Below, piece by piece: positions 43,802 to 61,627 of a stretch of 64,000 bases of DNA. The notes below the pieces were generated by a model that had not been told where the DNA came from, ran no database searches, and worked only from the letters and a program-made list of their open reading frames with translations. This DNA comes from a virus. Location: positions 1-64,000 of the IMG/VR virus record IMGVR_UViG_3300025668_000745. One strand, given 5' to 3'. Each line of letters starts with the position of its first letter. Position 1 is the stretch's first letter. A program made the position numbers and the translations under genes.

Positions 43802-44025
43802 TAGATTTAAAAGATCTCCCTGTTAGGGAATTACAAAAAGAAAGTGCAAGAGCTCTAAGTACAATACAAGCAACTAACAATAATATTTGGCAGTTTAATA
43901 AAAAAGCTCATCACAATAGTCATAATTGGTATTGTGCTGTAATAGACTGGTATATTGATCAATATGGAGATTTGCCCAGTAAAGCAGGCCCTGGTAAAGA
44001 TGTAAAATTGGTGTTAGATGTATGA
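43798..44025 (+). CDS. Small His/Trp-rich protein of unknown function
   Basis: A 75-residue protein with ATGA overlaps on both sides, so it is firmly inside the operon and probably real. The N-terminal half is a charged helix; the middle (KKAHHNSHNWYCAVIDWYID) is rich in His, Trp and Tyr; the C-terminus has DLPSKAGPGKD. No leader-cleavage signature is evident. Small size beside radical-SAM genes raises the idea of a modified peptide, but it has only one Cys and no repeated core, so I leave it unassigned. Confidence 0.6.
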   Translation: MIDLKDLPVRELQKESARALSTIQATNNNIWQFNKKAHHNSHNWYCAVIDWYIDQYGDLPSKAGPGKDVKLVLDV

Positions 44026-44654: not shown

Positions 44655-45737
44655 ATGTATAGATACGAAGACATCAAAGAAGTACACTTAGAAATTACGC
44701 AAAAGTGTCAAGCGGCCTGTCCTATGTGCGATCGTAACATGAATGGCGGAGATGATAATCCTCATATTACAAATGCAGAACTTAGTTTAGAAGATGCAAA
44801 AAGAATGTTTAGTCCTGCTTTTATAAAGCAATTAAATGTTATGTATATGTGCGGCAACTTAGGAGATCCTATTGTTGCTAAAGATACGCTTGAAGTATTC
44901 AAATATTTCCGCGAACATAACGATAAGATATGGTTGAGCATGAATACTAATGCTGGAGCCAAGAGTGCTGAATGGTGGACAGAACTTGCAGGAGTTATTG
45001 GTCGCAAGGGAGCAGTAATTTTTAGTGTAGACGGTTTAAAGGATACAAATCATTTATATCGACAGAACGTTGTTTGGAATAATGTTGAACGTAACATGCG
45101 AGCATTTATTAATGCTGGAGGCAGAGCCCGTTGGGACTTCTTAATTTTTGCACACAATGAACATCAAGTAGATGAAGCAGAAGCACTTGCTACTCAGTGG
45201 GGATGTGAAAAGTTTATCAAGAAAAAATCAGGTAGATTTATTACAAGTGATATTAAACCTAAAACATCTCATCAAGCAATAAATCGTAAAGGGGCTGAAA
45301 CACAAAACTTAGCACAGCCTAAAGATGAAAAGAATAAAAACATAGCACTACTAAAACAAAAAGAAATTGAAAAGTCTTATGGTAGTATGAAAGAGTATTT
45401 AGATAAGTGCAGTATTACTTGTAAAGTTGCAAACCAAGGAAGTATTTTTGTAACAGCAGAAGGACTTTTAATGCCGTGTTGTTGGACTGCTGGACGTATG
45501 TACAAATGGTGGCATGCAGATCCCCGTGTAGAACAGGTATGGGATCATATAGATAATGCTGGCGGAAAACAAGGCATAAGTATTATAGACAATGACATTA
45601 AACACGTGGTTAATGGAAAATTAATAGATAGTATCACTGCAAGTTGGCAAAAAAATAGTATTGCTGACGGAAAACTTGGCGTTTGCGCTCAAAAATGCGG
45701 TAGTGAATTTGACCCGTATAAGGAGCAATTTGTATGA
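44655..45737 (+). CDS. Radical SAM protein 1 ('GDP' type with C-terminal cysteines)
   Basis: A 360-residue protein with the [4Fe-4S] motif C18-QAA-C22-PM-C25. Instead of the usual GGEP it has CGNLGDPIV, followed by LSMNTNAG and FSVDG strands. A subfamily mark is FAHNEHQVDEAEALA near residue 165, also found in radical SAM protein 9. The C-terminal domain holds TCKVA, PCCW and CAQKCG, consistent with a SPASM/twitch-like auxiliary cluster. Such enzymes use reductive cleavage of SAM to make a 5'-deoxyadenosyl radical. The gene starts directly after the SGNH 2 stop and overlaps SGNH 3 by ATGA; together with that SGNH it forms a repeated gene pair. Confidence 0.88.
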   Translation: MYRYEDIKEVHLEITQKCQAACPMCDRNMNGGDDNPHITNAELSLEDAKRMFSPAFIKQLNVMYMCGNLGDPIVAKDTLEVFKYFREHNDKIWLSMNTNAGAKSAEWWTELAGVIGRKGAVIFSVDGLKDTNHLYRQNVVWNNVERNMRAFINAGGRARWDFLIFAHNEHQVDEAEALATQWGCEKFIKKKSGRFITSDIKPKTSHQAINRKGAETQNLAQPKDEKNKNIALLKQKEIEKSYGSMKEYLDKCSITCKVANQGSIFVTAEGLLMPCCWTAGRMYKWWHADPRVEQVWDHIDNAGGKQGISIIDNDIKHVVNGKLIDSITASWQKNSIADGKLGVCAQKCGSEFDPYKEQFV

Positions 45738-46450
45738 TATACGTAGGCGGCGACAGCTATGCATATGGATCAGAATTATTAGATATATCAAATCGTTTTG
45801 GTGATATTGTATCAGATGCTATGGGAACAACAAATCAAAACGATGCAATAGGCGGCGCAAGTAATCAAAGAATTTACCGTAAATTTTTTGAAGCGTTTGA
45901 TCCTAATAAATTTTCACATGTAATTTTAGGATGGACTGGCCTAAACAGATTTGAACATTATTCTGTCTTTGATCAAGATTATGACGGTTATAGAAGAATA
46001 ACTGCACATCGATTACTTCCTTCTAACAAACATGAAGATTACATAGATGAAAAACTTAGAAAAAGAATCGCAAAATTGCGAGATGATGTAAAGGTATCTA
46101 AAGAAAATAAAGTATTATTGCAGTACATGGCTAATGTACGTACTGACAGAGTTATACATGCTGAAATTTTAAATATGATACTGCAAGTACAAAGGATGTG
46201 TAAATATACTGACACAAAATTATGCATGTTTTTTGGAGTACAGAATAATATCATAAAATTCAATGAATTAATAACAGATCATTTAATGTACAATAGTGTA
46301 GACTGGAATGATACATGGCTTTATCAACCAGATTATTCTTTACAGGAATGTATGAATGATTTAAAATTACCAATAGGCCCAGGGAAACACTTTTTAGAAG
46401 AAGGCCATCAAGTTGCTGCTGACAAAATATTGGAGCATTTTAGTGTCTGA
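45734..46450 (+). CDS. SGNH-like protein 3 (catalytic Asp apparently missing)
   Basis: A 238-residue protein. MIYVGGDSYAYG places Ser8 in block I, GGASNQR is block II, and the C-terminal PIGPGKHFLEEGH provides His219. The usual block V Asp three residues before His is replaced by Pro/Gly. It is nearly the same design as SGNH protein 4 (MIYVGGDSYTYG), its likely duplicate. A Ser-His dyad can still work in some SGNH enzymes; otherwise this is a binding protein. Confidence 0.68.
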   Translation: MIYVGGDSYAYGSELLDISNRFGDIVSDAMGTTNQNDAIGGASNQRIYRKFFEAFDPNKFSHVILGWTGLNRFEHYSVFDQDYDGYRRITAHRLLPSNKHEDYIDEKLRKRIAKLRDDVKVSKENKVLLQYMANVRTDRVIHAEILNMILQVQRMCKYTDTKLCMFFGVQNNIIKFNELITDHLMYNSVDWNDTWLYQPDYSLQECMNDLKLPIGPGKHFLEEGHQVAADKILEHFSV

Positions 46451-47078
46451 TAAATGTTTTCAACTTTCAATCTCAACGTATTGTCAAGCTAAATGTCGTA
46501 GTTGCTTACGTACCAATAGCGAAACAGGTGAGCCGGAAGATTGGCTTACGCCTACACATATGAGCGTAGAAGCAGTACAAAATTTAGTATCTGGCGATTA
46601 TTTTAAAAAGAACAAACTGGGATATTTACTTCTTTGCGGAGAATTAGGTGATCCAATGATGCATCCTAATATAGATAAAATTTTAGATATTACTCTTGCT
46701 GTTGTTCCTCGAGTAGAACTTTCGACAAACGGCGGCCTGCGTCAACCAGAATGGTATGCAAAGACAGCGCAAAAATATGGAAGTCGTATTCATATTAAAT
46801 GGGCAATAGACGGCACTGACCATGAGACAAATTGGAAATATAGAGAAGGTGTTGACTATTATCGAGCAATGGATAATATGAAAGCATGGATTGAAAACGG
46901 TGGTAACGGTGATTGGCATTATTTAATTTTTGAGTGGAACTGGAAACAAGTAAAAACAGCTAAACAAATAGCTAAAGATATAGGGATTGAAATACTATTT
47001 AAAATAAACAACAGGCCGTTTGGGTTAATTGATCCACTTCATAAACGTAAAGTAATGGAGGAATTGACCAATGGCTAA
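46443..47078 (+). CDS. Radical SAM protein 2, core only (split enzyme)
   Basis: A 211-residue protein from GTG at 46443. GGAG lies seven bases upstream, and GTGTCTGA repeats the 8-base stop/start overlap seen elsewhere; a TTG at 46413 is in frame but less likely. The cluster motif is C14-QAK-C18-RS-C21. CGELGDPMMHP and WAIDG place it in the same 'GDP' type as proteins 1 and 9. The core ends where those two continue into a cysteine domain. That missing domain is encoded by the next gene, so the two products probably associate. Confidence 0.86.
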   Translation: MSDKCFQLSISTYCQAKCRSCLRTNSETGEPEDWLTPTHMSVEAVQNLVSGDYFKKNKLGYLLLCGELGDPMMHPNIDKILDITLAVVPRVELSTNGGLRQPEWYAKTAQKYGSRIHIKWAIDGTDHETNWKYREGVDYYRAMDNMKAWIENGGNGDWHYLIFEWNWKQVKTAKQIAKDIGIEILFKINNRPFGLIDPLHKRKVMEELTNG

Positions 47079-47463
47079 ACAGCAAAAGATTATGTGTATG
47101 TTTCATGATGGCGCTCGAAGTGAATACGATATAACTGTTGACGGTAGAGTGTGGCCGTGTTGTAAATTTGTAAATGTAATAACAAAGATCGAAGCCGGAT
47201 TGCAAAAAAAAGGTGCTCTTGACGGAGACGACTATTTTTTTAAATTACAAAAAGATGACCCTAATTGGAATAGTTTAGAACATCATTCATTAGACGAAAT
47301 ATTAGATCATGATTATTTTTCTACATATGTAAACAATGAAGGATGGGAAAGTGGAAACACCAGCGTATTGTGTAAAAAACGATGTACGGCAAATATGCAC
47401 CAAGACGGAACTTATACATATGTAGCAGATACAAGTAACAAAATACATAAGAGGATAAAATAA
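47071..47463 (+). CDS. Stand-alone SPASM-like cysteine domain, partner of radical SAM protein 2
   Basis: A 130-residue protein with C9 (IMCMF), VDGRVWPCCKF and CKKRC, the same order as the C-terminal cysteine domain of radical SAM protein 9 (ECEW, YTGRVWQCCYF, CSKFCG). HHSLDEILDHDYFST also matches HRTLSNILGHDFFTT in that protein. It lacks a CxxxCxxC core. It has its own strong GGAGG ribosome site and an 8-base overlap (ATGGCTAA) with the core gene, so the split looks like a stable two-gene arrangement rather than a sequencing error. Expected role: hold the auxiliary Fe-S cluster and help bind substrate. Confidence 0.82.
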   Translation: MAKQQKIMCMFHDGARSEYDITVDGRVWPCCKFVNVITKIEAGLQKKGALDGDDYFFKLQKDDPNWNSLEHHSLDEILDHDYFSTYVNNEGWESGNTSVLCKKRCTANMHQDGTYTYVADTSNKIHKRIK

Positions 47464-47464
47464 A

Positions 47465-48214
47465 ATGATATATGTAGGCGGGGACAGTTATACATACGGA
47501 ATTGAATTAAATAATCCTCTGAAAGGTCGATATTCTTTTTTGATGCAACAAAAATTAAAAATGTCTGTAGTAAATGATTCTTGGGGCGGAGCAAGTAATG
47601 ACAGGATAGCCAGAAAATTTTTAGAGTTTATGAGCGGTCATAAAGTAAAACCTGACTTGGTGTTTATTATGTGGGCTCCTATTACAAGATCAGAGCAGTA
47701 TGCTCCTGAGGAGGATATGTGGGAGGAAAGAGACGGATTTAGACAAGTAAGATCGCCTGATATTTTTTTACCTGCCAAAGGTAAGCCGACAAAAAAACAA
47801 CTACACTGGCGCCGATCTCTTAGTCAGTTAAGTGCTACGCAAAAATGGTGGCTTAATATATTTGACCAAAAAGGAGCAATTGATAGTTATATTAGAAATA
47901 TAATGATAGTTCAAACTGTTTGTCGTGCAGGAAATATACCGTTTATTATGACTAATTGTAATTCTTCAATGACACTCAAACAACTTGATGATTTTGTAAG
48001 TCGTAATAGAAAAGTAGAAAACTACACACAACAACGAGTAAATCTCATTGATAGTAGTAACTGGTTATTTGATAAAACATGGTCTTTTGCTGAATGGGCA
48101 AAAGATAACGAATATCCAATAGGTCCACAACATCATCCGTTAGAGGAAGCACATATAAACTTTGCTAATATATTAACAGACAAAGTTAAGGAGAGATTAA
48201 ATGCCTCCGATTAA
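47465..48214 (+). CDS. SGNH-like protein 4 (catalytic Asp apparently missing)
   Basis: A 249-residue paralogue of SGNH 3: MIYVGGDSYTYG with Ser8, WGGASNDRIARKF matching GGASNQRIYRKF, and PIGPQHHPLEEAH with His224 aligned to His219 of protein 3. Again no Asp precedes the His at the usual place. It closes the second radical-SAM/SGNH pair. No signal peptide or membrane segment. Its end overlaps the next radical-SAM gene by 14 bases. Confidence 0.68.
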   Translation: MIYVGGDSYTYGIELNNPLKGRYSFLMQQKLKMSVVNDSWGGASNDRIARKFLEFMSGHKVKPDLVFIMWAPITRSEQYAPEEDMWEERDGFRQVRSPDIFLPAKGKPTKKQLHWRRSLSQLSATQKWWLNIFDQKGAIDSYIRNIMIVQTVCRAGNIPFIMTNCNSSMTLKQLDDFVSRNRKVENYTQQRVNLIDSSNWLFDKTWSFAEWAKDNEYPIGPQHHPLEEAHINFANILTDKVKERLNASD

Positions 48215-49415
48215 ATGCTTCTTTGCAAAAAATGCAATTAATTACAAGCCCAATGATAGAATAACTGCGTGTCCCAGAGGTCACGGATCTTTGGCTAAAA
48301 TTAGTGACTCGGTAAAACCAAGTGATTTTTTAAATAACGAAGGATTTAGAAATCTTAGGAAAACTTTACAAGATGGTGAATGGGATACATCGCATTGTGA
48401 TACTTGTATGGAAAGAGAACAACGAAATATCACAAGTATGCGTCAAAACATTAACTCTGAATTTAATCCTAACACTAAAATTAATGCAAACGGCAAAGTG
48501 CGTTATAGAGAATTAAAATTTATAGAGCTTAGATTCAGTAATACTTGTAACTTATGCTGTTTGCATTGTGGCCCCGATTACAGCAGTCAATGGGCATCAC
48601 TTATAAAAAATAATCCCTTACAAAAAGATGACGTTGCTCATAATATTAGAGGATGGGTTAATCCGAGTAAAAATACAAATTGGACAAGTAAGCAAGTAAG
48701 AGACTTTGTAGAAGACTTAAATAGAAACTTTCCAAATGTTGAAAGATTTGATATTGCCGGCGGCGAGCCATTGTATCAAAAACAATTTTGGCTATTTTTA
48801 GATTTAATAAAAGACCATCCTAACATAAAACGTATGACTATTAGTATTACTTCTAACTTTAATGTTGACATTAATTATAAAGATTTTGCTAAAAAACTTA
48901 ATAAATTTAAATGTGCAAATGTGCGAATAAGTTTAGATGCTGGAAAAAACTTGTACGATTATTTTAGAGGCGGCAGCTGGGAAAAAGTAGAAGACAATAT
49001 AAAACAGTTTAACAAAACCAGAAGGAATACACAATTAGAGGTTACAAATACAATCGGAGTTCATCAAATTTTAGATCTTGAGGATGTAATTGTAAGTATG
49101 TTAGAACTTCCGGTTGACAAGTTACATCATAGTATTATACAATATCCTGACTATTTAAGTCCGCACGTATTTGAATCTAATAATCAAAGAGTCATTGATG
49201 AAATTGATAGGGCTAAAGCAGCAATTAATTGTTATAAAAGTGATATAAAATACGTTAGCGCTCATAGAATGATTAAATCACTTGAAAAGGAGTATAGTAA
49301 CTCAAAGTATAAATCTACTTTACTAAAAAGTTTTCAATACTATACTAATAAAATGGATAAAATTAAAAATACAAATTTTGAATCAGTGTTTGGATATAAA
49401 ATAGATGAACTCTAA
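48201..49415 (+). CDS. Radical SAM protein 3 (divergent N-terminal twitch type)
   Basis: A 404-residue protein. The N-terminal cysteine domain has C6, TACPRG (C24) and C66-DT-C69, a reduced version of the FC...CC...CxxC pattern in the following genes. The core motif is C116-NLC-C120-LH-C123, with GGEP (IAGGEPLYQ) and SLDAG strands. The C-terminal 120 residues are helical without clustered cysteines, so any auxiliary cluster must be in the N-terminal domain. AAGGAGAG precedes the ATG. I link it to the family NCBI calls twitch domain-containing radical SAM proteins; substrates of that family are not established to my knowledge. Confidence 0.87.
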   Translation: MPPIKCFFAKNAINYKPNDRITACPRGHGSLAKISDSVKPSDFLNNEGFRNLRKTLQDGEWDTSHCDTCMEREQRNITSMRQNINSEFNPNTKINANGKVRYRELKFIELRFSNTCNLCCLHCGPDYSSQWASLIKNNPLQKDDVAHNIRGWVNPSKNTNWTSKQVRDFVEDLNRNFPNVERFDIAGGEPLYQKQFWLFLDLIKDHPNIKRMTISITSNFNVDINYKDFAKKLNKFKCANVRISLDAGKNLYDYFRGGSWEKVEDNIKQFNKTRRNTQLEVTNTIGVHQILDLEDVIVSMLELPVDKLHHSIIQYPDYLSPHVFESNNQRVIDEIDRAKAAINCYKSDIKYVSAHRMIKSLEKEYSNSKYKSTLLKSFQYYTNKMDKIKNTNFESVFGYKIDEL

Positions 49416-50499
49416 CTATTGTGTCCTTCCTTTTGTTCATAGTTGTACAAATGTAGGCGGCAGAAATAAACCTTGCTGTAGATTTTCTGACCAAAGTTAT
49501 AACGATCAAGTTAGTCCGTTAGATTATTTCAATGGAGATAAGATAAATTTACTTAGAAATAAAATGCTTAACGGAGAAATAATAAAAGGATGCGACAAGT
49601 GTCACGCAGAAGAGTCGTTAGGTAAACAAAGTTATAGGCAACGGTCAAACAATCAATATAAAGAATATATTGACAAACAACCTACTTTAAAATTTATCGA
49701 AATTGGACTAAGCAATGCCTGTAATTTTGGATGTGTAACTTGTGATGCAGCATATAGCACAACTTGGTGGCAGGATATTGATGATGTAAATGCTATAGGC
49801 GCTAATAAAGCAAAACCTAATCAAAAAGTTGTATACACAGATAGTAAGTTTAATGACTTTTCTAATATAGATAGAATAAAAATATTAGGCGGCGAACCAT
49901 TTATGGAGCCGAGAAACTTAGAGTTTTTAAAAAAATGTAATTTAAAAAATATCGAATTAGAACTTGTTACAAATGGTAGCATTTTGCCAAACAATGAGTG
50001 GCAAGAAATATTGCAACAACTAAAATATGTAAACTTAGATATAAGTTTAGACGGCCATGGTGAAATTGCCGAGTATGTGCGTTATGGAACAAACTGGAAA
50101 AAATTAGAATCTAATATTAATTGGTGGAAACAGTGGTGGAGCAATAATAACAATATCACTATAAAAAGTCATTTTGTAGTTCATGCTCTAAATGCATTTG
50201 ATTTACATAATTATTTAGAATGGCAAAAAAAGTTTAAATGGAAAACTACGTTTGATATACTACAAATGCCAGAATATTTAAATATTAAAATTCTGCCAAC
50301 AGAAATGAAGAAAGAAATTTTAGAAAAGGTAGATATTAAGAATGTTACAAACTATTTAACTAAGCATATGAACATTTTTGACAAGGACCAGTGTAGTCTG
50401 CTAACTAACTATGTTAGTGTTTTAAATAAAAAACGTAATCATGACTTACAACAAATTAACAAACTAATGGATAGACTTAATGAAGCAACCAACAGATAG
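49405..50499 (+). CDS. Radical SAM protein 4 (N-terminal twitch type)
   Basis: A 364-residue protein, the shortest of the type. The twitch domain has YCVLPFVH (C6), KPCC (C24, C25) and C63-DK-C66-HAEE; the core has C106-NFG-C110-VT-C113, LGGEPFMEP, LVTNGS and SLDGH. The order, twitch before core, is the reverse of SPASM enzymes. The gene overlaps the previous one by 11 bases and the next by 20. The core and all cluster ligands look intact. Confidence 0.88.
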   Translation: MNSNYCVLPFVHSCTNVGGRNKPCCRFSDQSYNDQVSPLDYFNGDKINLLRNKMLNGEIIKGCDKCHAEESLGKQSYRQRSNNQYKEYIDKQPTLKFIEIGLSNACNFGCVTCDAAYSTTWWQDIDDVNAIGANKAKPNQKVVYTDSKFNDFSNIDRIKILGGEPFMEPRNLEFLKKCNLKNIELELVTNGSILPNNEWQEILQQLKYVNLDISLDGHGEIAEYVRYGTNWKKLESNINWWKQWWSNNNNITIKSHFVVHALNAFDLHNYLEWQKKFKWKTTFDILQMPEYLNIKILPTEMKKEILEKVDIKNVTNYLTKHMNIFDKDQCSLLTNYVSVLNKKRNHDLQQINKLMDRLNEATNR

Positions 50500-51724
50500 T
50501 AAAACTTTTTGTATTTTACCTTGGATACATGTGAATGGTAGTGTCGGCGGAGGTTATCGACCATGCTGTAATAGTGAAAGTTATTTTGATTTTAAAGACG
50601 ACAACAACAGTATCAAACAAGCGTTTGAAAGCAACAGTATGGACGAAATCCGCCAGTTTATGCAGCAGGAAAAAGAACATCCTGCATGTGAAGTTTGCTA
50701 TTCAAGAGAGCGCAATAATGGATTAAGTTTTCGACATACATACACAGTTGATAAGTTTAAAGAATTTGTAGATCCGAATGCAGACGAAAAAATAAAATAT
50801 TTAGACTTACGTTTTGATAACACTTGTAATCTTGCTTGTAGAATGTGTGATCCAAGTAGTAGTAATCAGTTATATAGTAGTATCGAATGGTATAGGCAAG
50901 AGGATAAACCACTACCAGAACACTGGAAAGGGTTTACTAATTATAAACAAAAAGATCAAACACAGATTAGTGCAAATCGTAAAGACTATGTAATAGAATT
51001 ATTACCGGGTATAGAAGTTTTAAAAGTAACTGGCGGCGAACCTTTTATTAGCAAGGATTTTTTAGAAGTATTAGATCATGCAATTGAAAATGATTATGCA
51101 AAAAATATTAGATTGCTAATAACTACAAATGGCACTAAGTTTGTAAAGGCAGTTTTACAACGTCTTAAACATTTTAAGGGCGTTGACATGAATGTAAGTG
51201 TTGACGGAACCAGTCATGTGTATGACTATGTTAGATATCCTTTTACATGGAATAAATGGAATGATAGATTCTTAGAGTTTTTAAATTTTGCTGATGAAAA
51301 CGAAATGTATAAAAACAAATACTTTCGAATTCGAACAAGTACAGTTGTTACAATGTACAATTGGTTGAATTGTCCAGAGCTATATACACATTTGAAATCT
51401 TATACTGAACAATTTCCGTGGTTAATTAATAAAAATTATATACCACGTATAGATTTTAATTTAAATCTGCGCCCAAAAGATAGTGAAATGTCGGCCAAGT
51501 GGTTACCTAATAACATTTTAGATAAGGGTTTAGAGTTATGGCAGCACACTGATTGTAGACAATATAAAGAATTTGAAAAGTATGTAGTTAATGCAAAAAA
51601 ACTAAGTTCAGACGATAAAAATCTTTATCGAGAAAAAATTAAATACACTACTACGACATTAGACAAACAGCGGAAACAAACTTTTGCTGTATTAGATAGC
51701 GAGATTGTTAAATGGCTAAAATAG
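50480..51724 (+). CDS. Radical SAM protein 5 (N-terminal twitch type)
   Basis: A 414-residue protein. Twitch: FCILPWIH (C11), YRPCC (C29, C30), C70-EV-C73. Core: C116-NLA-C120-RM-C123, then TGGEPF, TTNGT and SVDGT. YVRYPFTWNKW after the SVDG strand is shared with radical SAM proteins 10 and 11 (YIRYPSVWS, YQRWPLKW), suggesting a similar substrate pocket. The C-terminal helical region is about 100 residues. It overlaps both neighbours, so the operon is continuous here. Confidence 0.9.
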   Translation: MKQPTDSKTFCILPWIHVNGSVGGGYRPCCNSESYFDFKDDNNSIKQAFESNSMDEIRQFMQQEKEHPACEVCYSRERNNGLSFRHTYTVDKFKEFVDPNADEKIKYLDLRFDNTCNLACRMCDPSSSNQLYSSIEWYRQEDKPLPEHWKGFTNYKQKDQTQISANRKDYVIELLPGIEVLKVTGGEPFISKDFLEVLDHAIENDYAKNIRLLITTNGTKFVKAVLQRLKHFKGVDMNVSVDGTSHVYDYVRYPFTWNKWNDRFLEFLNFADENEMYKNKYFRIRTSTVVTMYNWLNCPELYTHLKSYTEQFPWLINKNYIPRIDFNLNLRPKDSEMSAKWLPNNILDKGLELWQHTDCRQYKEFEKYVVNAKKLSSDDKNLYREKIKYTTTTLDKQRKQTFAVLDSEIVKWLK

Positions 51725-53115
51725 ATAAAAAAGAAGCAGAGCGTTTAGAAAGTTTAGTACCAAATAAAAAGTTTTGTCCTGCTCCCTTTATGCATACATA
51801 TATAAATTCAAATAATAGAGGATATAAACTTTGCTGTATGAGTCATATTGTTGGTCGTTGGGATACTGAACAAAGTCTTAAAGAACAACACGAAGAATTT
51901 TGGACTGGTGAAACTATGCAAAGTATTCGCCAAGATTTTCTTGATGGCAAAATGCCAGAATCGTGTGAGTGGTGGTGCGGTCGTTGGGAAAAAGAAGGTA
52001 TATATCATAAGAGTGATAGATTAGATTTTATAAAACGCTACGAATTAGAATTAAAAGCAGGATTTACAGAAATAAATTGGGACATAACTCATGGTACTCT
52101 TGAATTCCAGAAGCCAGTTGATATTGATTTACGACCAAGTAAAATGTGTAATTTAAAATGTCGTAGCTGTAATAGTCTTTGGTCCGATAAGATTGAACAA
52201 GAAGTACTTGCTAATCCAGAAATACAAGGATGGAGCCATTGGGACATGGTAACACAAAGCCCTAATGCTATGCGTAAAGCAAAACAGATTGATTACTCAG
52301 ATCCTAAGTTTGATGTTGTTAGTAATTTAGACTTTTCAAATGTATTTCGTTTAAAAATGAGCGGAGGGGAAACGTTAGTTGATCCAAGAGTTTATAATAT
52401 TATGAAAAAACTTGTTGATAGTGGCGAAGCAAAGAATGTACGTCTTCATCAAATTACAAACTGTACCAGCCTTCCAAGCAGAATATACGATTTACTGGCA
52501 CAGTTCAAAGAAGTTAGTTTCAATATTAGTGTAGATGGCGTAAAAGAAACAGATGAATTTTTACGTGACGGGACCAGATGGGATCGAAAACAAAAAGTAT
52601 TTGATAAAATCTTTACATTACCTAATTTAAAATGGGCTGGCATAATGCATGTCTTCCAACCTGTTAGCGCATTTCAAGTAAAGCGTAATGTAGAATGGTT
52701 TTTAGAAGGATACAGAAAATATACAAAACAACATAACGGTGTTACTTTTAATCCTATTGTTGATCCTTGGTATCTAAGTGTAAGTTGGTTAGATGAAGAT
52801 CATAAAGAGTACATAAGACAGCAAGTAAAAGAATGTATAACAGAATTTAATATGTGTAAACAAGAACAACAATGGTTTGATCTGTTACATAGTGAATTAG
52901 ATAAGACACAAACTGACGAGCGTCGAAAAAGATATGCAAATGATTATGTGCGAGCAGAGTTAGCATTGGATAAAATAAGAAATACAAGTTCTCTTACTAT
53001 AGAGCCTATGCTACAAAGATATTTTGATAGATACGATCCAAACAATGTTACACACGGTGACAAAACAGGAAGACCAGGAGCCCACTTTGATGGAAAACCA
53101 AAACCAACAGTCTAA
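51712..53115 (+). CDS. Radical SAM protein 6 (N-terminal twitch type)
   Basis: A 467-residue protein. Twitch: FCPAPFMH (C22), KLCC (C41, C42), C85-EWW-C89 (one residue longer than the usual CxxC). Core: C146-NLK-C150-RS-C153, MSGGET (Thr in place of Pro), QITNCTS and SVDGV. FLRDGTRWDRK follows. The last 40 residues form a Gly/Pro/Lys tail without clear fold, overlapping the next gene by 26 bases. Closest by pattern to protein 7 (CNLKCRMC). Confidence 0.89.
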   Translation: MAKIDKKEAERLESLVPNKKFCPAPFMHTYINSNNRGYKLCCMSHIVGRWDTEQSLKEQHEEFWTGETMQSIRQDFLDGKMPESCEWWCGRWEKEGIYHKSDRLDFIKRYELELKAGFTEINWDITHGTLEFQKPVDIDLRPSKMCNLKCRSCNSLWSDKIEQEVLANPEIQGWSHWDMVTQSPNAMRKAKQIDYSDPKFDVVSNLDFSNVFRLKMSGGETLVDPRVYNIMKKLVDSGEAKNVRLHQITNCTSLPSRIYDLLAQFKEVSFNISVDGVKETDEFLRDGTRWDRKQKVFDKIFTLPNLKWAGIMHVFQPVSAFQVKRNVEWFLEGYRKYTKQHNGVTFNPIVDPWYLSVSWLDEDHKEYIRQQVKECITEFNMCKQEQQWFDLLHSELDKTQTDERRKRYANDYVRAELALDKIRNTSSLTIEPMLQRYFDRYDPNNVTHGDKTGRPGAHFDGKPKPTV

Positions 53116-54349: not shown

Positions 54350-55532
54350 AACATACAATAGTATTAACCCCAGTAAAACAAATGAATTTATCATAACATG
54401 GGACACTGGCAAACGATGTAATTTTGACTGCGGCTATTGCGGCGATGACAGACATGACTTAGTGAGCAAGTTTCCAGACTTCGACGAGCTTGTTAAAGGT
54501 GTTGACTTTATTAAGAAATATTTAACAGTAATGATGCCGCATAGGAATAATCAAGTTGCTACACTTAGTTTAACAGGCGGAGAACCTACAGTTAATCCTA
54601 ATTTTTTACGATTAGCAACATATCTAAACGATCAATTTAAAGACTTTGAATACGAAGTTAAAACTATCTTAACTACAAACGGCAGTTTCCCTCAAAAAAA
54701 TATTCAACATTTGGTAGATAATTTTAGAGGAATCACTCTTAGTTATCATTGTGATAGTAAAGAAAAACTTAAAGAAAAAGTAAGAGAAAATATCCTTATT
54801 TTACATAAGAGTATGAAAAGTTTTAAAGTAAATCTTATGATGCATCCGTATGATAATTATTGGCAAGAATGTTTAGATTTAATCGATGTAATGGACGAGC
54901 ATAAAGTTAAGTATGTTCCAAGAGTAATTAATGGTTTAAAATATAGTCCAGAGCAAAGTGAATTTCTTACAAATTATTGGCAAAGGAAAAATAAAACTAA
55001 AACTGAAATAAAAGTAGAAAAAGTTGAATCAAAGCCACAAGAAGTTAAAAAAGAAAATGTCATACATCGAAAAATGAAAAAAGATGTTGAAAAAACATTT
55101 AACGAATTACGAAAAGATGAAACTAAAACTAATGTTATTCACGGCAGGCATTGTTGTAGTAAACACGAATTATCCTGCGGGTCAATGTGTGGATCTACGC
55201 AAAATCTTACATATGTTACCGATACAAGATTTCCAGAATGGTACTGCGGTGTAAATTGGTTCTTTTTACATCTCGAAAGTCAAACAGATCAAATATTTCA
55301 TCATCAAACCTGTCAAGCACAATACGGCAAAGGTAGGGGAGCAGTTGGTAAAATAAGTGAGTGGACAACTTTTACTGACAAAGTTGAAACTATGATAAAC
55401 ACAGGTAAAATGGAAACTATTCAATGTCCAAATAAAAAGTGTGGTTGCGGATTGTGTGCTACAAAGAGTATAGATAAAAATATGTTTAACAACTTAATGT
55501 CTAATCATATTAAGGGCGTAACATATGTCTGA
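54342..55532 (+). CDS. Radical SAM protein 8 (CxxxCxYC type with Cys-rich C-terminus)
   Basis: A 396-residue protein from ATG 54342, which gives the 8-base overlap ATGAATGA; an ATG at 54321 would add seven residues. Core: C26-NFD-C30-GY-C33, LTGGEPTVNP and TTNGS. No N-terminal twitch. A Lys/Glu linker (about residues 228-270) leads to a dense cysteine region: HCCSKHELSCGSMCGS, YCGVNW, CQAQYG and CPNKKCGCGLCA. That is ten or more cysteines, enough for one or two extra clusters. The split between core and cysteine domain by a charged linker is unusual among its neighbours. Confidence 0.87.
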   Translation: MNETYNSINPSKTNEFIITWDTGKRCNFDCGYCGDDRHDLVSKFPDFDELVKGVDFIKKYLTVMMPHRNNQVATLSLTGGEPTVNPNFLRLATYLNDQFKDFEYEVKTILTTNGSFPQKNIQHLVDNFRGITLSYHCDSKEKLKEKVRENILILHKSMKSFKVNLMMHPYDNYWQECLDLIDVMDEHKVKYVPRVINGLKYSPEQSEFLTNYWQRKNKTKTEIKVEKVESKPQEVKKENVIHRKMKKDVEKTFNELRKDETKTNVIHGRHCCSKHELSCGSMCGSTQNLTYVTDTRFPEWYCGVNWFFLHLESQTDQIFHHQTCQAQYGKGRGAVGKISEWTTFTDKVETMINTGKMETIQCPNKKCGCGLCATKSIDKNMFNNLMSNHIKGVTYV

Positions 55533-56751
55533 TAACAGTCTTGGTATTCATATCGAAATATCTTCTAACTGTAACAGCAGATGTTTAGACTGTGGACGAT
55601 TTGTCAAAGGTACAGACACTATTAATCCGTATGTTGATATTGGAAGTAAAGGCAATATCAGTATTTCGGCTATAGAAAATATTTTTGATAAATCTATATC
55701 AGAAACTGCACGATACGTAAATTTTACTGGAACTTATGGTGACTTTACCTTACATCCCAATGCATTAGATATAATGAAATGTATTTCTAATAAAATACAC
55801 CCGCACATAAAAAATAGAAATAAAAATGAGTTAACAGATAAAATAAGATTACTTGCTGAAACAAATGGCGGAGCAAGAGACGACGAATGGTGGCACAAGT
55901 TTGGTGACTACATCTTAAAATATTTTGATAAAGGTAGTTTAGTTATATTTGCATTAGACGGCACCGACAACGACACGCACCAAATGTACCGTCGAGGTGT
56001 TGACTTTGATACAGTGTTACGACATGCAAAAATTTTAATTGATAAAGGTATACGAACACGTTGGAGCTTTATAAGTTTTGCGCACAATGAACATCAACTC
56101 GACGAAGCAAAGCAAATGGCTAACGAAATAGGATTTACACAATTTCGAATTAGAAGATCAAGGCTACGCCATAATCCAAAAACAATTACAAATGTAAAAC
56201 AAAAAAAGAAAAACATAAGTGATAAACAAATATCAAAGTCTCAGATGTATACAGACTTAGTAAAAGAAAAAGAACATAGTGTTGTAAATGATGTTCCTAA
56301 GCCGTGGTATAAAAAGAAGATTGACGATTATGTAAATGAAACTTCTATTGAGTGCGAATGGAAAAAGAAACAACAAATTAGTATAGACTATACAGGAAGA
56401 GTTTGGCAATGTTGTTACTTTAGTAATTTTTATCATTATAACTTAAATCTGCCAGACTACGAACATGTGTCAAATAATGCATATGATTACAATTATAATA
56501 ACCAAAACTACGAACGGTTAAGTGTCTACGAGGATAGATACAATGACAAATGGAATAATATAAATCATAGAACACTTAGTAATATTTTAGGACACGATTT
56601 CTTCACAACAGATTTGCCTGATAGTTTTAATAACACTACAGAGCATAAACATAATCCAAGAATTGTACGATGTAGCAAATTTTGTGGAGAAAAGTCAAGA
56701 ACTTTAGATAAGAAGCTAACATCTATTAATAAAGAAAAAGAGGAACAATAA
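55525..56751 (+). CDS. Radical SAM protein 9 ('GDP' type, fused C-terminal cysteine domain)
   Basis: A 408-residue protein with C16-NSR-C20-LD-C23 and, instead of GGEP, FTGTYGDFTLHP. ALDGTDND and FAHNEHQLDEAKQMA mark it as a relative of proteins 1 and 2. The C-terminal half has ECEW, YTGRVWQCCYF and CSKFCG, which are the motifs encoded separately by 47071-47463. It is therefore the fused form of the split pair. It begins at ATGTCTGA, an 8-base overlap with the upstream gene. A Lys-rich loop near residues 215-245 lies between core and cysteine domain. Confidence 0.88.
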   Translation: MSDNSLGIHIEISSNCNSRCLDCGRFVKGTDTINPYVDIGSKGNISISAIENIFDKSISETARYVNFTGTYGDFTLHPNALDIMKCISNKIHPHIKNRNKNELTDKIRLLAETNGGARDDEWWHKFGDYILKYFDKGSLVIFALDGTDNDTHQMYRRGVDFDTVLRHAKILIDKGIRTRWSFISFAHNEHQLDEAKQMANEIGFTQFRIRRSRLRHNPKTITNVKQKKKNISDKQISKSQMYTDLVKEKEHSVVNDVPKPWYKKKIDDYVNETSIECEWKKKQQISIDYTGRVWQCCYFSNFYHYNLNLPDYEHVSNNAYDYNYNNQNYERLSVYEDRYNDKWNNINHRTLSNILGHDFFTTDLPDSFNNTTEHKHNPRIVRCSKFCGEKSRTLDKKLTSINKEKEEQ

Positions 56752-58158
56752 ATGACTTACAAATCGCCGTCAGACACATTTTGCTTACTGCCTTGGGTAC
56801 ATTTAAGTACAAGACCGGACGGCAGTATGCGAGTATGTTGCACAGCTAATGCAAGTAGTGTTGGCGCAACCAATGACAAAGAGCACGGCGGCCAAGTTGG
56901 CATCCTTAAAACTGAAGACGGTAAGCCTAATAATTTAAATGTTAGTGATTTTGAATCAGCATGGAACAGCACATACATGAAAAATGTGCGTAAGCAGATG
57001 CTTAATGGTGAAAAGCCACCCAGTTGTATAAAATGCTTTAAAGAAGAAGCGGCTGGTCACAATTCAAAGCGTATGTGGGAAACACATTATTGGAGCCAGA
57101 GAGTTGATGTTGATAAAATTATTGCTGACACAAAAGAAGACGGATCAGTTCCACCTCAACTTGCGTACATTGATTTACGCTTTGGTACTAAGTGTCAGTT
57201 AGCATGTGTTATGTGTAGCCCACATGATAGTTCAGGTTGGATTAAAGATTATAAAGCAATTTTTCCTGCTGTAGAAAACGCCAGTCTTAAAGAAACAATG
57301 CAATGGCAAGACAAAGGAAGTTATAATGGTAGTAGTTATAACTGGCATAAACAAAATCCTACTTTCTGGAAACAGTTTTATGAACAAATGCCAAGTATGC
57401 AGCAGATCTATTTTGCAGGCGGCGAAAGTCTTATTATTGAAGAACACTATGAAATACTTGAACACGCAATTAAAATGGGATATGCTAAAGATTTAGAGCT
57501 ACGCTATAATTCAAACGGTGTTGAATGGCGTGAGGATTTATTTGATTTATGGAAAGAATTTAAACTTGTACGATTCCATTATTCAGTAGACAGTATACAC
57601 GAAATGAATGACTATATACGTTATCCAAGTGTATGGAGTAGAACAAGTGAAGTCTTTCATATATTAGATAACGAAACAAGTAATAACGTAGAAGTTACAG
57701 TTGCATGTGCAGTGCAAGCTCTTAATATATATTATTTGCCCGACTTTATAAAATGGAAACTTAACGAAGGATTTAAAAAGATTAATATGTGGCCTTTTGG
57801 CGCCGGCGGTATTAACTATCACTTTGTATATCATCCACCGCATTTAAATGTAAAAGTTTTACCCAAATGGTTTAAAGAAGAATGCCGTAAGAAGTATGAA
57901 GAATTTTATCCGTGGTGGGAAGCTAATTGGGAAAAGGGTGTACCGAGCTGGCACAAAGGCAAAGTTGATTACGACAAATGGCGCAGTGCAAGTTATGGTA
58001 TTGATAGATTAGAAGGAATGTTAACGTTTATGGAAAGCGAAGACTGGAGTGTGCGACTTCCTGAAATGAAAGAATTTTTAGATTTATGTGACACACAACG
58101 CGGCATAACTTTTGCAGAAACTTTTCCTGAAATGAAGGATATATTTAAGGATGTCTAA
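56752..58158 (+). CDS. Radical SAM protein 10 (N-terminal twitch type, extended)
   Basis: A 468-residue protein. Twitch: FCLLPWVH (C11), MRVCC (C29, C30), then an insertion with KTEDGKPNNLNVSDFES, and C92-IK-C95-FKEEAAG. Core: C148-QLA-C152-VM-C155, FAGGESLI (Ser replaces Pro), YNSNG and SVDSI. The insertion and the DLRFGxxCxLAC line pair it with protein 11. It starts one base after the previous stop with GAGGAA as ribosome site. Confidence 0.9.
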   Translation: MTYKSPSDTFCLLPWVHLSTRPDGSMRVCCTANASSVGATNDKEHGGQVGILKTEDGKPNNLNVSDFESAWNSTYMKNVRKQMLNGEKPPSCIKCFKEEAAGHNSKRMWETHYWSQRVDVDKIIADTKEDGSVPPQLAYIDLRFGTKCQLACVMCSPHDSSGWIKDYKAIFPAVENASLKETMQWQDKGSYNGSSYNWHKQNPTFWKQFYEQMPSMQQIYFAGGESLIIEEHYEILEHAIKMGYAKDLELRYNSNGVEWREDLFDLWKEFKLVRFHYSVDSIHEMNDYIRYPSVWSRTSEVFHILDNETSNNVEVTVACAVQALNIYYLPDFIKWKLNEGFKKINMWPFGAGGINYHFVYHPPHLNVKVLPKWFKEECRKKYEEFYPWWEANWEKGVPSWHKGKVDYDKWRSASYGIDRLEGMLTFMESEDWSVRLPEMKEFLDLCDTQRGITFAETFPEMKDIFKDV

Positions 58159-59473
58159 CACCTTTTGTCCTATTCCCTGGATATTTCAAGCAGTACGTAA
58201 TAACGGCGATATTAGAGTATGTTGTCAAGCAAACGTAACTAAAAATCAAGGTGTTGTTAGACACGAAGACGGCAAACCGTATAATGCCGGAAGAGATGAT
58301 ATGTCAAAAGCACGTAATGCAACTCTTATGAAAGAAATACGGAAAAATATGCTTGACGGAGTATGGAGTGAAGAGTGTACTCGGTGTATGAACGAAGAAG
58401 CAAGTGGGTTAAACAGTCGAAGACAGTACGAATTAGAAAATTGGAAATTTGATTTAGACGAAGCAGCATCTATAACTGAGTTAGACGGATCTATATCTCA
58501 ACCTCCAATAAGTTATTATGATTTACGCTTTGGTAATATGTGCAACCTTGCATGTCGTATGTGTGGCCCAACTGACAGCCATACCTGGTATGAACAGTGG
58601 ATAGATTATCACGGCGGCGACGGATATGATGATACTCATGGTAGAGTTACGTTAAAGAAAAATGAAAAAGGAAGATTATATACCAACGATTATGATTGGC
58701 ACAACAGCGAAAGTTTTTGGGAACAAATAGAAAAAAATATTTCAAATATTGACCATGTATATATGGCCGGCGGCGAGCCAATGATGATTGAACGTCATTA
58801 CGAGTTTTTACAAAAGTGTATAGACAGCGGTTATGCAAAAAAAATTATTATTGAATATAATACAAATATGACAACTTTGCCTGATCGAGTATTAAAAATG
58901 TGGACATATTTTAAACAAGTAAGAGTTGGCGCAAGTATAGACGGAATGGGTGATGTTGTTGAATATCAACGTTGGCCACTAAAATGGAAAAGTGCATATC
59001 GTAATTTAAAAAAACTTGATGACTATGCGTATAACAATAAAAATATTATTGCTTGGATAGCATTTACAGTTACAGCATACAACGTATGGCATACACCAGA
59101 ATTTATGTGGTGGAAATTAAAAGAAAGCGGATTTAAAGCAATTAACAGCACTAAGAAACGTCCTATTATTACACATCATGTTGCTCACGGACCAAAAAGA
59201 GCAAACATTAAGATTTTGACACCTGAGCTTAAAATAAAATTACAAGAATATTATAACGAATGGATTGATCGTGTTAATGGCGATAACGAAATTACACCTT
59301 TACAAAAAGAAAAATTTGCTGATATATTAGCAAGTATTTTAAAATTCTCCAATAGTGCAGATATGAGTGATCAAATACCGCAGTTTATAAAATTTACTAA
59401 ATATCTCGACGATACTCGTAAGCAAGATATATTATCAATTGCGCCAGAATACAAGGATTTATTTGATGGCTGA
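58151..59473 (+). CDS. Radical SAM protein 11 (N-terminal twitch type, extended)
   Basis: A 440-residue close paralogue of protein 10. Twitch: FCPIPWIF (C6), IRVCC (C24, C25), an insertion with RHEDGKPYNAGRDDMSKARN, and C76-TR-C79-MNEEASG. Core: C131-NLA-C135-RM-C138, MAGGEPMMIERHYEFLQ (compare FAGGESLIIEEHYEILE in protein 10), EYNTN and SIDGM. The pair probably arose by local duplication. An 8-base overlap ATGTCTAA joins them. Confidence 0.91.
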   Translation: MSNTFCPIPWIFQAVRNNGDIRVCCQANVTKNQGVVRHEDGKPYNAGRDDMSKARNATLMKEIRKNMLDGVWSEECTRCMNEEASGLNSRRQYELENWKFDLDEAASITELDGSISQPPISYYDLRFGNMCNLACRMCGPTDSHTWYEQWIDYHGGDGYDDTHGRVTLKKNEKGRLYTNDYDWHNSESFWEQIEKNISNIDHVYMAGGEPMMIERHYEFLQKCIDSGYAKKIIIEYNTNMTTLPDRVLKMWTYFKQVRVGASIDGMGDVVEYQRWPLKWKSAYRNLKKLDDYAYNNKNIIAWIAFTVTAYNVWHTPEFMWWKLKESGFKAINSTKKRPIITHHVAHGPKRANIKILTPELKIKLQEYYNEWIDRVNGDNEITPLQKEKFADILASILKFSNSADMSDQIPQFIKFTKYLDDTRKQDILSIAPEYKDLFDG

Positions 59474-60473
59474 CTTTCTACCAATGATGTATCAAGATAG
59501 TCCAATAACTAAAGTACTCCAAGAATCAACAACTTTTAACTTTGCTACTACAGTATCAGATTATTGTAATTACTCGTGTCATTACTGCTGGCCTGGAGCA
59601 CATGCTGGAACAATGAAACTTCCGCCACCTACAGATATATTCAAGCATAATATTAAAAAATATTGCAAATGGGTTAAAAAACATAACCCAAAAATAGAAA
59701 ATTTTTATTTTCATTATAGCGGCGGCGAGCCTTCTATGTTCCCCCATATGTCTGATTACCTAAAGTTTGTTGCTGATGAAATACCTAATGGGTATAGCGG
59801 ATTGCAAACAAACGGATCTCGAACAATTAGATGGTGGGAGAAAAATTTACCAAATCTTCATTCATTATCGATAAGTGTACATGTTGGTAGCGCAGATCCT
59901 AATCATTTAATAGAACTTGCAAAACTTTGTGAAGAACACAAAGTAGATTACAATCTAAATGTTGCAGCCGATCTTCGAAATAAAAAGAAAGTATTAAAAT
60001 TTTTAGAATTATTTTCTAAAAATAATCTACAAACGGGATTTCATCTAATACAAGAAATACACGAAACCTGGGACGATAATGATCTACACACTAATAAAGA
60101 GTTTTATGAGGCGTGTGATAGTTTTACAGCGCATTATCAAGATCGTAATAGTAATTCAGAGTTACAACGTAAAGTAACATTTGAAACAGAAGATTCAAAG
60201 AAACCAATTAAGTTTGATGAAATGCAGAGAAGTTCAATGAGGGGAGATTGGACTGGATATGATTGTAATACACCGGCACAATTTATGATGATTAATTCAC
60301 AAGGTCATTTATATATATCTTGTGGTAATAAAATTGGACCACTAATTAAAAAAATTGATTTATTTAAATCTAAATTATCAGTTATTCCTGCACAACCTTG
60401 GGTGCGTTGTACAACTGGATATTGTAAGTGTACAGGCTTATGGCATGCCAATAAACAATTAGTAATAAAGTAG
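59466..60473 (+). CDS. Radical SAM protein 12 (CxxxCxYCWP type)
   Basis: A 335-residue protein from ATG 59466 (overlap ATGGCTGA). Core: C34-NYS-C38-HY-C41-WP, SGGEPSMFPH and QTNGS; SISVHVG replaces the SxDG strand. C-terminal cysteines are few: YDC, ISCGNK, RCTTGYCKC, resembling a short SPASM-like tail. The CNYxCxYCWP line and the SGGEP(S/T)FHP-like line link it to the next gene, despite that gene's different base composition. It is the last gene of the coupled operon; a new promoter starts at its stop codon. Confidence 0.88.
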   Translation: MADFLPMMYQDSPITKVLQESTTFNFATTVSDYCNYSCHYCWPGAHAGTMKLPPPTDIFKHNIKKYCKWVKKHNPKIENFYFHYSGGEPSMFPHMSDYLKFVADEIPNGYSGLQTNGSRTIRWWEKNLPNLHSLSISVHVGSADPNHLIELAKLCEEHKVDYNLNVAADLRNKKKVLKFLELFSKNNLQTGFHLIQEIHETWDDNDLHTNKEFYEACDSFTAHYQDRNSNSELQRKVTFETEDSKKPIKFDEMQRSSMRGDWTGYDCNTPAQFMMINSQGHLYISCGNKIGPLIKKIDLFKSKLSVIPAQPWVRCTTGYCKCTGLWHANKQLVIK

Positions 60474-60502
60474 TTGACTTTTGCAAACAAAGAATGTAAT
60501 AT
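60474..60502 (+). promoter_or_regulatory. Sigma70-type promoter giving a possibly leaderless mRNA
   Basis: TTGACT (60474-60479), a 17-base spacer and TAATAT (60497-60502). Transcription would begin about base 60509, the A of the next ATG, and no Shine-Dalgarno sequence lies in front of that ATG. The -10 matches only 4 of 6. Confidence 0.5.
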
Positions 60503-60508
60503 ATTAAT

Positions 60509-61627
60509 ATGAGCGAAGATTTAAAATGGTCAAATTATGACTTTACTAAAATACCTTTTGACGACATTGTCTCTGTGGGGCAACGTACTCTGCTGTATCG
60601 TGATATATTTACTGTATCATGGTTACTTGGACGTTTCTGCAACTACAAGTGTTCCTACTGTTGGCCCTATGCCCGAAGTGACCGTAAAGATCACAGACCT
60701 ACCGAGCTCTGCTTGCGAACAGTGGATGAAATTAAACGTCAAGCCAGAGACAACGGCTTCAATTCTTTCCACTTCTCCTTGTCAGGAGGAGAGCCTACTT
60801 TCCATCCTGGATACTTGGACATACTAAAGCACTTAGCTGACGATGTAGATAATACTAACTATACAAGTGTACACATGACATCAAACTGTAGTCGCAACAT
60901 GCGTTGGTTTGAACAGTATGTAGAAGCAGTTAAACCATTTCATAGAGCAAGCATTACAGCAAGCCTGCACACAGAACACTTAAACACAAAGGAGAAGATG
61001 CAGGACTTTGCAGATAAACTAATCCTGTGTCAAGAACACGATGTACAAGTTACAATTAATATGGTCATGGTGCCGGACTGGTTTGAACGTGATTGGGAAA
61101 ATGCACTGTTCTTTCACGAACAAGGTATCAACGTTACTCTTAAACCACAATCAGACCCTACTGCTTCTAAAGTTGTTGACGGATACAAACCGGAAGACCT
61201 AAAACGTTTACATAACGGTATGCCGCAACGTGCATATACAGAAAGCAAACGTAAGTGGGAAGGTAGACCAAAACCTGCCTTTCAAATTCCACAAGGAGCA
61301 GACGGGAAACTTGATGCAAGTGTGCCTTGGCATTTTCAAGTAGAGTTTAAAGACTCAACAGGTAAAAAATGGTTCATGGATCAAGCAGAAAGATTTAATG
61401 CATTTAATTTTAATAAGTTTGAAGGATGGCGATGTAATGCAGGGTATCAAGGAATTATTATACGTGAACCGGACGGTTCAGTAAAGCGTAGTTATAGCTG
61501 TCATGATACGCCTCTTGGTAACATAGAAACAGGATTTAAGTTATTTGACAAACCTATGCCATGTATAACTAAATCCTGTGTAAGTAGTGCAGATAGTAAA
61601 ATACCTAAGACTAAAATTATTTCTTAA
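60509..61627 (+). CDS. Radical SAM protein 13 (CxxxCxYCWP type, different base composition)
   Basis: A 372-residue protein. Core: C44-NYK-C48-SY-C51-WP, SLSGGEPTFHPGYLDILKHL, MTSNCS and SITASLH. The C-terminus has a CNAGYQGI segment, GSVKRSYSCHDT and PCITKSC, a SPASM-like set. Bases 60661-60720 are 55% G+C by count, against 22% at 59641-59700 in protein 12, and codon choice shifts to match. Later parts of the gene are less extreme. This suggests recent acquisition from a richer genome. It is not coupled to the upstream operon, has its own promoter and lacks a visible ribosome site. Its end overlaps the convergent nitroreductase gene by 11 bases. Confidence 0.9.
   Translation: MSEDLKWSNYDFTKIPFDDIVSVGQRTLLYRDIFTVSWLLGRFCNYKCSYCWPYARSDRKDHRPTELCLRTVDEIKRQARDNGFNSFHFSLSGGEPTFHPGYLDILKHLADDVDNTNYTSVHMTSNCSRNMRWFEQYVEAVKPFHRASITASLHTEHLNTKEKMQDFADKLILCQEHDVQVTINMVMVPDWFERDWENALFFHEQGINVTLKPQSDPTASKVVDGYKPEDLKRLHNGMPQRAYTESKRKWEGRPKPAFQIPQGADGKLDASVPWHFQVEFKDSTGKKWFMDQAERFNAFNFNKFEGWRCNAGYQGIIIREPDGSVKRSYSCHDTPLGNIETGFKLFDKPMPCITKSCVSSADSKIPKTKIIS

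Follow-up and report, generated by a model that had tools for sequence, protein, structure and literature searches.

The first 64,000 bases of the viral IMG/VR record IMGVR_UViG_3300025668_000745—84,643 bases in full, of which the analyzed stretch is called the window here—carry thirteen intact genes for radical S-adenosylmethionine (rSAM) enzymes between positions 44,655 and 61,627. These genes, r1 to r13, belong to an island that begins further upstream with glycosyltransferase and methyltransferase genes at 38404–43127, and whose conserved frame recurs in related viruses and in chromosomes of Bdellovibrionota. As glycosyltransferases are co-localized with the tailoring enzymes in phages and chromosomes alike, a glycan or glycoconjugate is the most economical reading of the product. 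Hence, with a confidence that falls just short of even, we propose a modular cassette that makes a surface glycan or glycoconjugate of an unusual kind, for which we infer the glycan substrate, the order of steps, and the role.

All thirteen open reading frames (ORFs) are open, without internal stops, and bear one CxxxCxxC cluster motif apiece, as a first-pass annotation of this DNA had described. In 2,000 shuffles of the proteins, a mean of 0.07 of the 13 carried the motif, with a maximum of two. Pfam Radical_SAM (PF04055) matches every one of them (E-values of 1e-17 to 1e-5), twelve above the curated cut-off, and r6—which stays under it—clears the cut-off of N_Twi_rSAM (NF033640) with 234 versus 170 bits. 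The three architectures of the annotation are borne out by BLAST groups, with similarity almost confined within groups (22–33% identity): an N-terminal twitch group (r3, r4, r5, r6, r7, r10, and r11), a “GDP”-type group (r1, r2, and r9), and a CxxxCxYC group (r8, r12, and r13). The entire twitch group passes NF033640 (cut-off 170 bits) at 226–418 bits and r1, r2, r8, r9, r12, and r13 fail it; the N-terminal auxiliary-cluster cysteines C11, C29, C92, and C95 (r10 numbering) are invariant in 15 aligned sequences including all seven twitch enzymes of the island. NF033640—twitch domain-containing rSAM—is a subfamily without an assigned reaction, and none of the rSAM proteins passes the equivalog cut-offs of characterized enzymes (MoaA, viperin, mycofactocin, PqqE, NirJ, BlsE, and others), the scores being a fraction of each, for example, 51 versus 180 for viperin and 44 versus 284 for MoaA. 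The cores do not all fall into one characterized family, and inactivating frameshifts were not found; neither of the two outcomes that the annotation had named as speaking against it was seen.

Twelve of the genes lie in one tightly overlapping operon, also as annotated: with the two SGNH-like genes in between and the partner gene of r2 taken into account, neighboring genes from r1 to r12 overlap by up to 92 bp or are separated by at most 1 bp. The 35 bp between r12 and r13 form the largest gap within the operon. A sequence TTGACT-17-TAATAT occupies this gap; promoter-like matches occur regionally at chance level, and an internal promoter ahead of r13 is hence not claimed. Past the window, the same contig bears two further rSAM genes, one of N-terminal twitch type at 64289 (minus strand) and one at 67600 (plus strand) that is closest to B12-binding rSAM families, making a total of 15 in 84.6 kb. 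The T4-type baseplate wedge protein gp6 (12498–15968) shows 33–35% identity over 90–97% to jumbo and other T4-like phages, and its closest relatives are found in the jumbo T4-like phages Salicola SCTP-2, Agrobacterium Atu_ph07, and Salmonella Munch. Judged from this sequence relationship, the record is therefore probably a fragment of a larger phage genome, whose rSAM count may be higher.

The annotation had credited all three “GDP”-type enzymes with C-terminal cysteines, and hereby r2 marks an exception: its type assignment stands, but it lacks these cysteines. The protein (221 amino acids (aa)) stops after the SAM-cluster domain, and the auxiliary-cluster cysteines are found on the next ORF, r2b, across an eight-base overlap (ATGGCTAA). 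The same split is present in the isolated Pelagibacter phage Mosig (211 + 112 aa, 8-bp overlap) and in a third lineage (L045 and L055–L058; ATGTATAA/ATGTTTAA). As the split recurs in a 96–97% identical relative and in the two other lineages, frameshifts and sequencing errors are ruled out as its cause. As the r2b frame is closed 0–5 codons upstream of its ATG, a programmed frameshift is unlikely as well; a GGAGG-like site precedes this ATG in the window. The simple reading is that r2 and r2b are two translationally coupled subunits, which we infer to form one enzyme, and gene 2 belongs to a recurrent and seemingly new type of split rSAM.

Compared with a 90–100% identical relative contig (loci L021/L003), the ratio of nonsynonymous to synonymous substitution rates (dN/dS) is 0.0–0.21 for 12 of the 13 rSAM genes, which rules out decay. 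Gene amplification for dosage is ruled out too, since an identity of 22–33% inside the groups marks anciently diverged genes. Diverged and under purifying selection, the rSAMs seem each to serve a step or tailoring activity of their own—to this extent the annotated idea of a multistep product rather than dosage holds, while as an overall interpretation it is supported in part. The exception is r12, whose dN/dS against L003 is about 1.1, with 40 replacement versus 8 silent changes and with its cluster motif and GGEP motif intact. Adaptive evolution of this gene amid strongly constrained neighbors is possible.

Related loci were collected from IMG/VR by scans with r1 (the best 80 of 234 matching stretches) and r11 (17 stretches); a profile of all N-terminal twitch sequences was too divergent for scanning. 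Three to 20 rSAM cores are carried by each of 28 related records, and the rSAM proteins of about 100 loci make up 98 families at 50% identity. Only R1, R10, R11, and R13 (r1, r10, r11, and r13 in the window) are common among the window's set, the remainder being swapped between viruses. The constant frame reads [c5]-c7-GT8-GT8-(beta-type protein)-GTd-MT-sm74-R1; variable genes come next, and after them R10, frequently with R11, R8, and R13. The order GT8-GT8-GTd-MT-sm74-R1-...-R10-R11-R13 is found across approximately 80 loci. The glycosyltransferase/methyltransferase genes GTd/MT lie within 4.5 kb upstream of R1 in all 72 loci (72 of 72) whose sequence reaches far enough upstream, and in 16 ORFs of relatives GTd and MT are fused. 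The fibre-like protein c5 is present in one or two copies immediately 5' of c7-GT8-GT8 in related phages. The model of MT matches small-molecule methyltransferases in Foldseek (E-values of 1e-6 to 1e-7). Three loci from metagenome-assembled genomes (L101, “Neisseriaceae”; L106, “Rickettsiales”; L108, “Gammaproteobacteria”) are located inside viral clades and carry sm74; these are thus probably misbinned phage contigs and were treated as such rather than as bacterial loci. Among isolated phages, protein queries with r1, r11, and r13 gave remote matches only and a DNA query gave none.

A bacterial counterpart of this frame exists. In a scan with an R10/R11 profile, which covered one genome per prokaryote species, relatives of R10 at 52–63% identity belong mainly to Bdellovibrionota, and 15 of 291 sampled genomes of this phylum carry R10 at >50% identity. 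Around it, R13 is found within 10 kb in all 15; R1 accompanies it in 12 of the 15, as do GTd and/or MT, likewise in 12. Several of these loci reside amid housekeeping genes on contigs of 0.3–1.6 Mb and are hence chromosomal. One marine Bdellovibrionales genome bears R10-GTd-R13-c5-c7-GT8-GT8-GTd-rSAM-rSAM-rSAM after pheS-pheT, with the order from c5 to GTd identical to that in the phages; assembly chimerism at this locus is unlikely. Within the R10 tree, Bdellovibrionota form a grade that encloses the viral clade, and the bacterial rows nearest to this clade include this very genome. As the root is weakly supported, a transfer from bacteria to phage is no more than suggested. Radical_SAM matches number 18–56 per genome in R10-carrying Bdellovibrionota (G029–G036, G042, and G081–G309). 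In G309 (L211), the R10-R13-R1 cluster adjoins Tad/Flp pilus genes (RcpC and prepilin peptidase). G032 and G035 have a sole Tad gene each, positioned within 10 kb of R10; the R10 clusters with Tad/Flp genes nearby are L211, L206, and L208. As a side observation, Bdellovibrionota tested with NF033640 hold 8–28 twitch rSAMs each, which are apparently undescribed. Judged by eye, HTTM/vitamin-K-carboxylase-like membrane proteins flank bacterial rSAM clusters at L104/L105.

The gene neighborhoods of bacterial R10 bear directly on the product. Glycos_transf_2 is matched by 15 of 81 other neighbors and is by far the top family, with single matches to Polysacc_synt_2, DegT aminotransferase, and Asn_synthase. 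Given 232 GT2 genes in 51.2 Mb genome-wide, 1.3 are expected in the R10 windows—at least nine are present, in six genomes, an approximately sevenfold enrichment (Poisson P of 8e-6 by gene and 0.001 by genome). Together with the 72 of 72 phage loci, the GTd-MT fusions, and the modular turnover around fixed anchors, this supports a surface glycan or glycoconjugate, as does the earlier linkage of pelagimyophage host-recognition islands with GT8 enzymes of LPS type and with rSAM cassettes (PMC7029224). In such a cassette, the two GT8-like enzymes and the duplicated GT2-like enzyme would build or attach the glycan, and the class I methyltransferase with R1, R10, R11, and R13 would provide conserved tailoring, the rSAM chemistry possibly being oxidation, epimerization, C–C or C–S bond formation, or similar. 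The other rSAMs, the SGNH-like proteins, and the oxygenases, which change from virus to virus, might then give each virus its specific variant, so that interchangeable late rSAM steps could create antigenic variety—as proposed for the host-recognition glycosyltransferase genes of pelagimyophages. On infection, the host envelope might be altered, for example for superinfection exclusion, or the phage's own fibres might be decorated. The cassette would be mobile, its core having been exchanged with Bdellovibrionota.

Several observations weigh against this proposal. Of the 15 bacterial R10 loci, 9 are without GT2 within 10 kb among the matches listed. Within the island of the phage, no genes for sugar-nucleotide synthesis, a polymerase, a flippase, or export were identified. 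The glycosyltransferase assignments are weak by sequence—the GT8-like pair has no Pfam match, its label resting on the DxD motif and the pelagimyophage literature (PMC7029224), and GTd matches PF00535 at 7e-5 (its chromosomal homologue at 7e-7) and nothing among PDB sequences. The 2-oxoglutarate (2OG) oxygenases, desaturase, and redoxin next door fit several kinds of product. Finally, the solved structures nearest to an R10 model of pLDDT (predicted local distance difference test) 72 include the peptide maturases SkfB, SuiB, and PqqE along with viperin and BlsE; these neighbors are mixed and of low similarity and hence do not favor sugars.

That the nearest of these structures is SkfB, a maturase of ribosomally synthesized and post-translationally modified peptides (RiPPs), invites the thought that twitch/SPASM-type rSAMs modify a ribosomal precursor—sm74 or an unlinked peptide—that is then glycosylated as in mycofactocin. 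Many weak NCBIfam similarities to peptide maturases would fit, as would the small size and conservation of sm74 and its co-occurrence with R1 (61 of 72 loci). However, sm74 is conserved end to end without a variable core, and it is unmatched in the 15 Bdellovibrionota genomes with R10 in a search without positive control; full-length conservation and restriction to phages disfavor it as a precursor. With 35 bp as its widest gap, the operon leaves no room for another precursor gene, and the Pfam scans made, of which none was aimed at a RiPP recognition element (PqqD-like), contained no such element. We regard a RiPP-like product as rather unlikely.

Downstream of the rSAM genes, the oxygenase at 62334–63086 opens an accessory oxidation module that runs beyond the window (65–76 kb of the record, at L001 3007–12611 and L002 602–1774). 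It encodes an aminotransferase-like protein, two flavin mononucleotide (FMN) reductases, a B12-type rSAM, a redoxin, two TauD proteins, several probable 2OG oxygenases, a methyltransferase, a GNAT-like protein, and a fatty-acid desaturase. Much of it is common to Pelagibacter phage Mosig, and part is found in a Bdellovibrionota locus (L104/L200). Such a module, along with the nitroreductase, would suit a small molecule or cofactor that stays free rather than bound to a surface, for example a modified form of a sugar, a nucleoside, or an amino acid with a role as signal, siderophore-like compound, or antibiotic, and BlsE and viperin among the structural neighbors of R10 point the same way. However, neither a thioester assembly line nor a transporter nor a resistance gene was identified; most bacterial loci are without the oxidation module, and it is the glycosyltransferases that show the tightest and most universal linkage. 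A free metabolite is thus an unlikely product in our estimation.

Instead of a glycan as such, the glycosyltransferases and rSAMs might modify a surface fibre protein, which would be c5 for phages and a pilin-type protein for Bdellovibrionota. Many phage loci have c5 directly ahead of c7-GT8-GT8, and the Bdellovibrionales locus next to pheS-pheT keeps this order; both are in line with the notion, as is the vicinity of Tad/Flp genes described above. However, c5 is present in 1 of 15 bacterial loci and might be a mere tail-cluster gene in phages, and proximity to Tad is seen in 3 of 15 loci, two of which are close relatives, so that chance is possible. The notion, resting on c5 and Tad/Flp proximity, is only a lead and in our view doubtful; c5 is a weak candidate for the acceptor protein. 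A combination of both ideas—a mobile glycoprotein system of jumbo T4-like marine phages and Bdellovibrionota that decorates tail fibres or pili with radical-altered glycans, including the two-subunit rSAM—is more doubtful still. Modification of nucleic acids against host defense, be it DNA hypermodification or tRNA, finds some footing in known pathways with rSAM enzymes and in weak QueE/MoaA-like profile similarities. All of these similarities are far under the family cut-offs, the rSAMs have glycosyltransferases and SGNH-like proteins as partners, and the core occurs in bacterial chromosomes without phage context, making it highly improbable.

The annotation considered an rSAM density of this kind to be undescribed in phages, which does not hold. 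Campylobacter phages CP220 and CPt10 encode 11 and 12 rSAM proteins, five of them in an exchangeable module of approximately 10 kb (Timms 2010, PMC2853527), and the T4-like ocean virus TARA_ERS488813_N000010 bears 12 rSAM genes and a gene for an Fe–S A-type carrier (Nishimura 2017, PMC5332604). Hence, the density is not new. CP220, CPt10, and CP21 resemble the present virus in being T4-like with many rSAMs, which in CP21 lie near tail-fibre genes. Nevertheless, R13 reaches only 25% similarity to a protein of CP21, queries with R1 and R11 match nothing there, the GT8-GTd-MT-R1 frame is not seen, and the density is lower than here. The TARA virus set is probably an island of the same kind; it differs in its Fe–S carrier, whose family (PF01521) has no match in 20 viral contigs of our set, and the part of its report considered here describes neither synteny nor a split enzyme nor a bacterial counterpart. 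Pelagimyophages possess a hypervariable host-recognition cluster by the tail-fibre genes, with GT8-type enzymes and rSAM cassettes, for which modification of the host O-chain was proposed (PMC7029224). In contrast, gp6 is closest to jumbo T4-like phages here and the rSAM load is far larger. Mosig (EXVC030M) shares, besides the split rSAM, a 75% identical desaturase and relatives of the TauD, 2OG oxygenase, aminotransferase, redoxin, and FMN reductase genes, but has three annotated MoaA-like genes and is without R10, R11, and R13. For the conserved frame, the Bdellovibrionota counterpart, and the split enzyme, no description was found in the literature searched; as its coverage is incomplete, this is no proof of novelty, and the frame architecture and the bacterial link appear new.

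Reports of dense rSAM cassettes in phages go back to 2010 and offer no hypothesis that goes past boosted host metabolism. The frame of glycosyltransferase/methyltransferase, R1, R10, and R13 in viruses and chromosomes constitutes a minimal set of five to six genes and points to surface glycans. If true, some of the densest known reservoirs of uncharacterized radical enzymes, with approximately 98 families from some 100 loci, would reside in marine viruses, and these enzymes would be exchanged with predatory bacteria. Table 1 lists the features of the island.

Table 1. Genes of the island within the window
Feature	Position	Strand	Basis or remark
c5, fibre-like protein, 350 aa	36959..38011	+	homologue in same gene order, Bdellovibrionales chromosome
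c7, small conserved frame protein	38067..38420	+	present in 35 of ~100 loci; homologue in chromosomal L198
First GT8-like glycosyltransferase	38404..39231	+	conserved pair; homologues in L198; DxD motif
Second GT8-like glycosyltransferase	39228..40082	+	conserved pair; homologues in L198; DxD motif
GTd, duplicated GT2-like (GT-A) glycosyltransferase, two DGD motifs	40628..42244	+	PF00535 7e-5
MT, class I SAM-dependent methyltransferase fold	42228..43127	+	AlphaFold model pLDDT 84 and Foldseek
SGNH/GDSL-like hydrolase	43127..43801	+	PF13472, below cut-off
sm74, 75-aa protein, conserved full length, phage-specific	43798..44025	+	in 61 of 72 R1 loci; alignment
SGNH-like protein	44022..44654	+	homologue of 43127–43801, same cluster
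r1 (R1), “GDP”-type rSAM, C-terminal cysteines	44655..45737	+	most widespread member
SGNH-like protein	45734..46450	+	clusters with 47465–48214
r2, rSAM core subunit of split enzyme, 221 aa	46413..47078	+	Radical_SAM match
r2b, separate subunit with auxiliary-cluster cysteines (C, CC, CxxxC)	47071..47463	+	ATG overlaps r2 stop, 8 bp
SGNH/GDSL-like protein	47465..48214	+	PF13472 3e-4
r3, N-terminal twitch rSAM	48201..49415	+	NF033640 9.6e-67
r4, N-terminal twitch rSAM	49405..50499	+	NF033640 6.6e-76
r5, N-terminal twitch rSAM	50480..51724	+	NF033640 1.8e-76
r6, N-terminal twitch rSAM	51712..53115	+	NF033640 2.3e-69
r7, N-terminal twitch rSAM	53024..54349	+	NF033640 7.5e-73
r8, CxxxCxYC rSAM, many C-terminal cysteines	54321..55532	+	motif and group
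r9, “GDP”-type rSAM	55525..56751	+	motif and BLAST group
r10 (R10), N-terminal twitch rSAM	56752..58158	+	NF033640 4e-125; Bdellovibrionota orthologues 52–63% identical
r11 (R11), N-terminal twitch rSAM	58151..59473	+	NF033640 1.6e-111
r12, CxxxCxYC rSAM, fast-evolving	59439..60473	+	dN/dS 1.1 versus L003
r13 (R13), CxxxCxYC rSAM	60509..61627	+	within 10 kb of R10 in 15 of 15 Bdellovibrionota genomes
Nitroreductase-family flavoprotein	61617..62249	-	PF00881 2.5e-8
Probable Asp/Asn beta-hydroxylase-like 2OG oxygenase	62334..63086	+	like Mosig Asp_Arg_Hydrox protein, 51 bits; no Pfam match

Elsewhere in the window, a single ORF of 4,998 aa in a VrlC-like position spans 15968–30964 upstream of the tail-fibre genes, and an ORF at 492–941 resembles, judged by eye, a GIY-YIG homing endonuclease.

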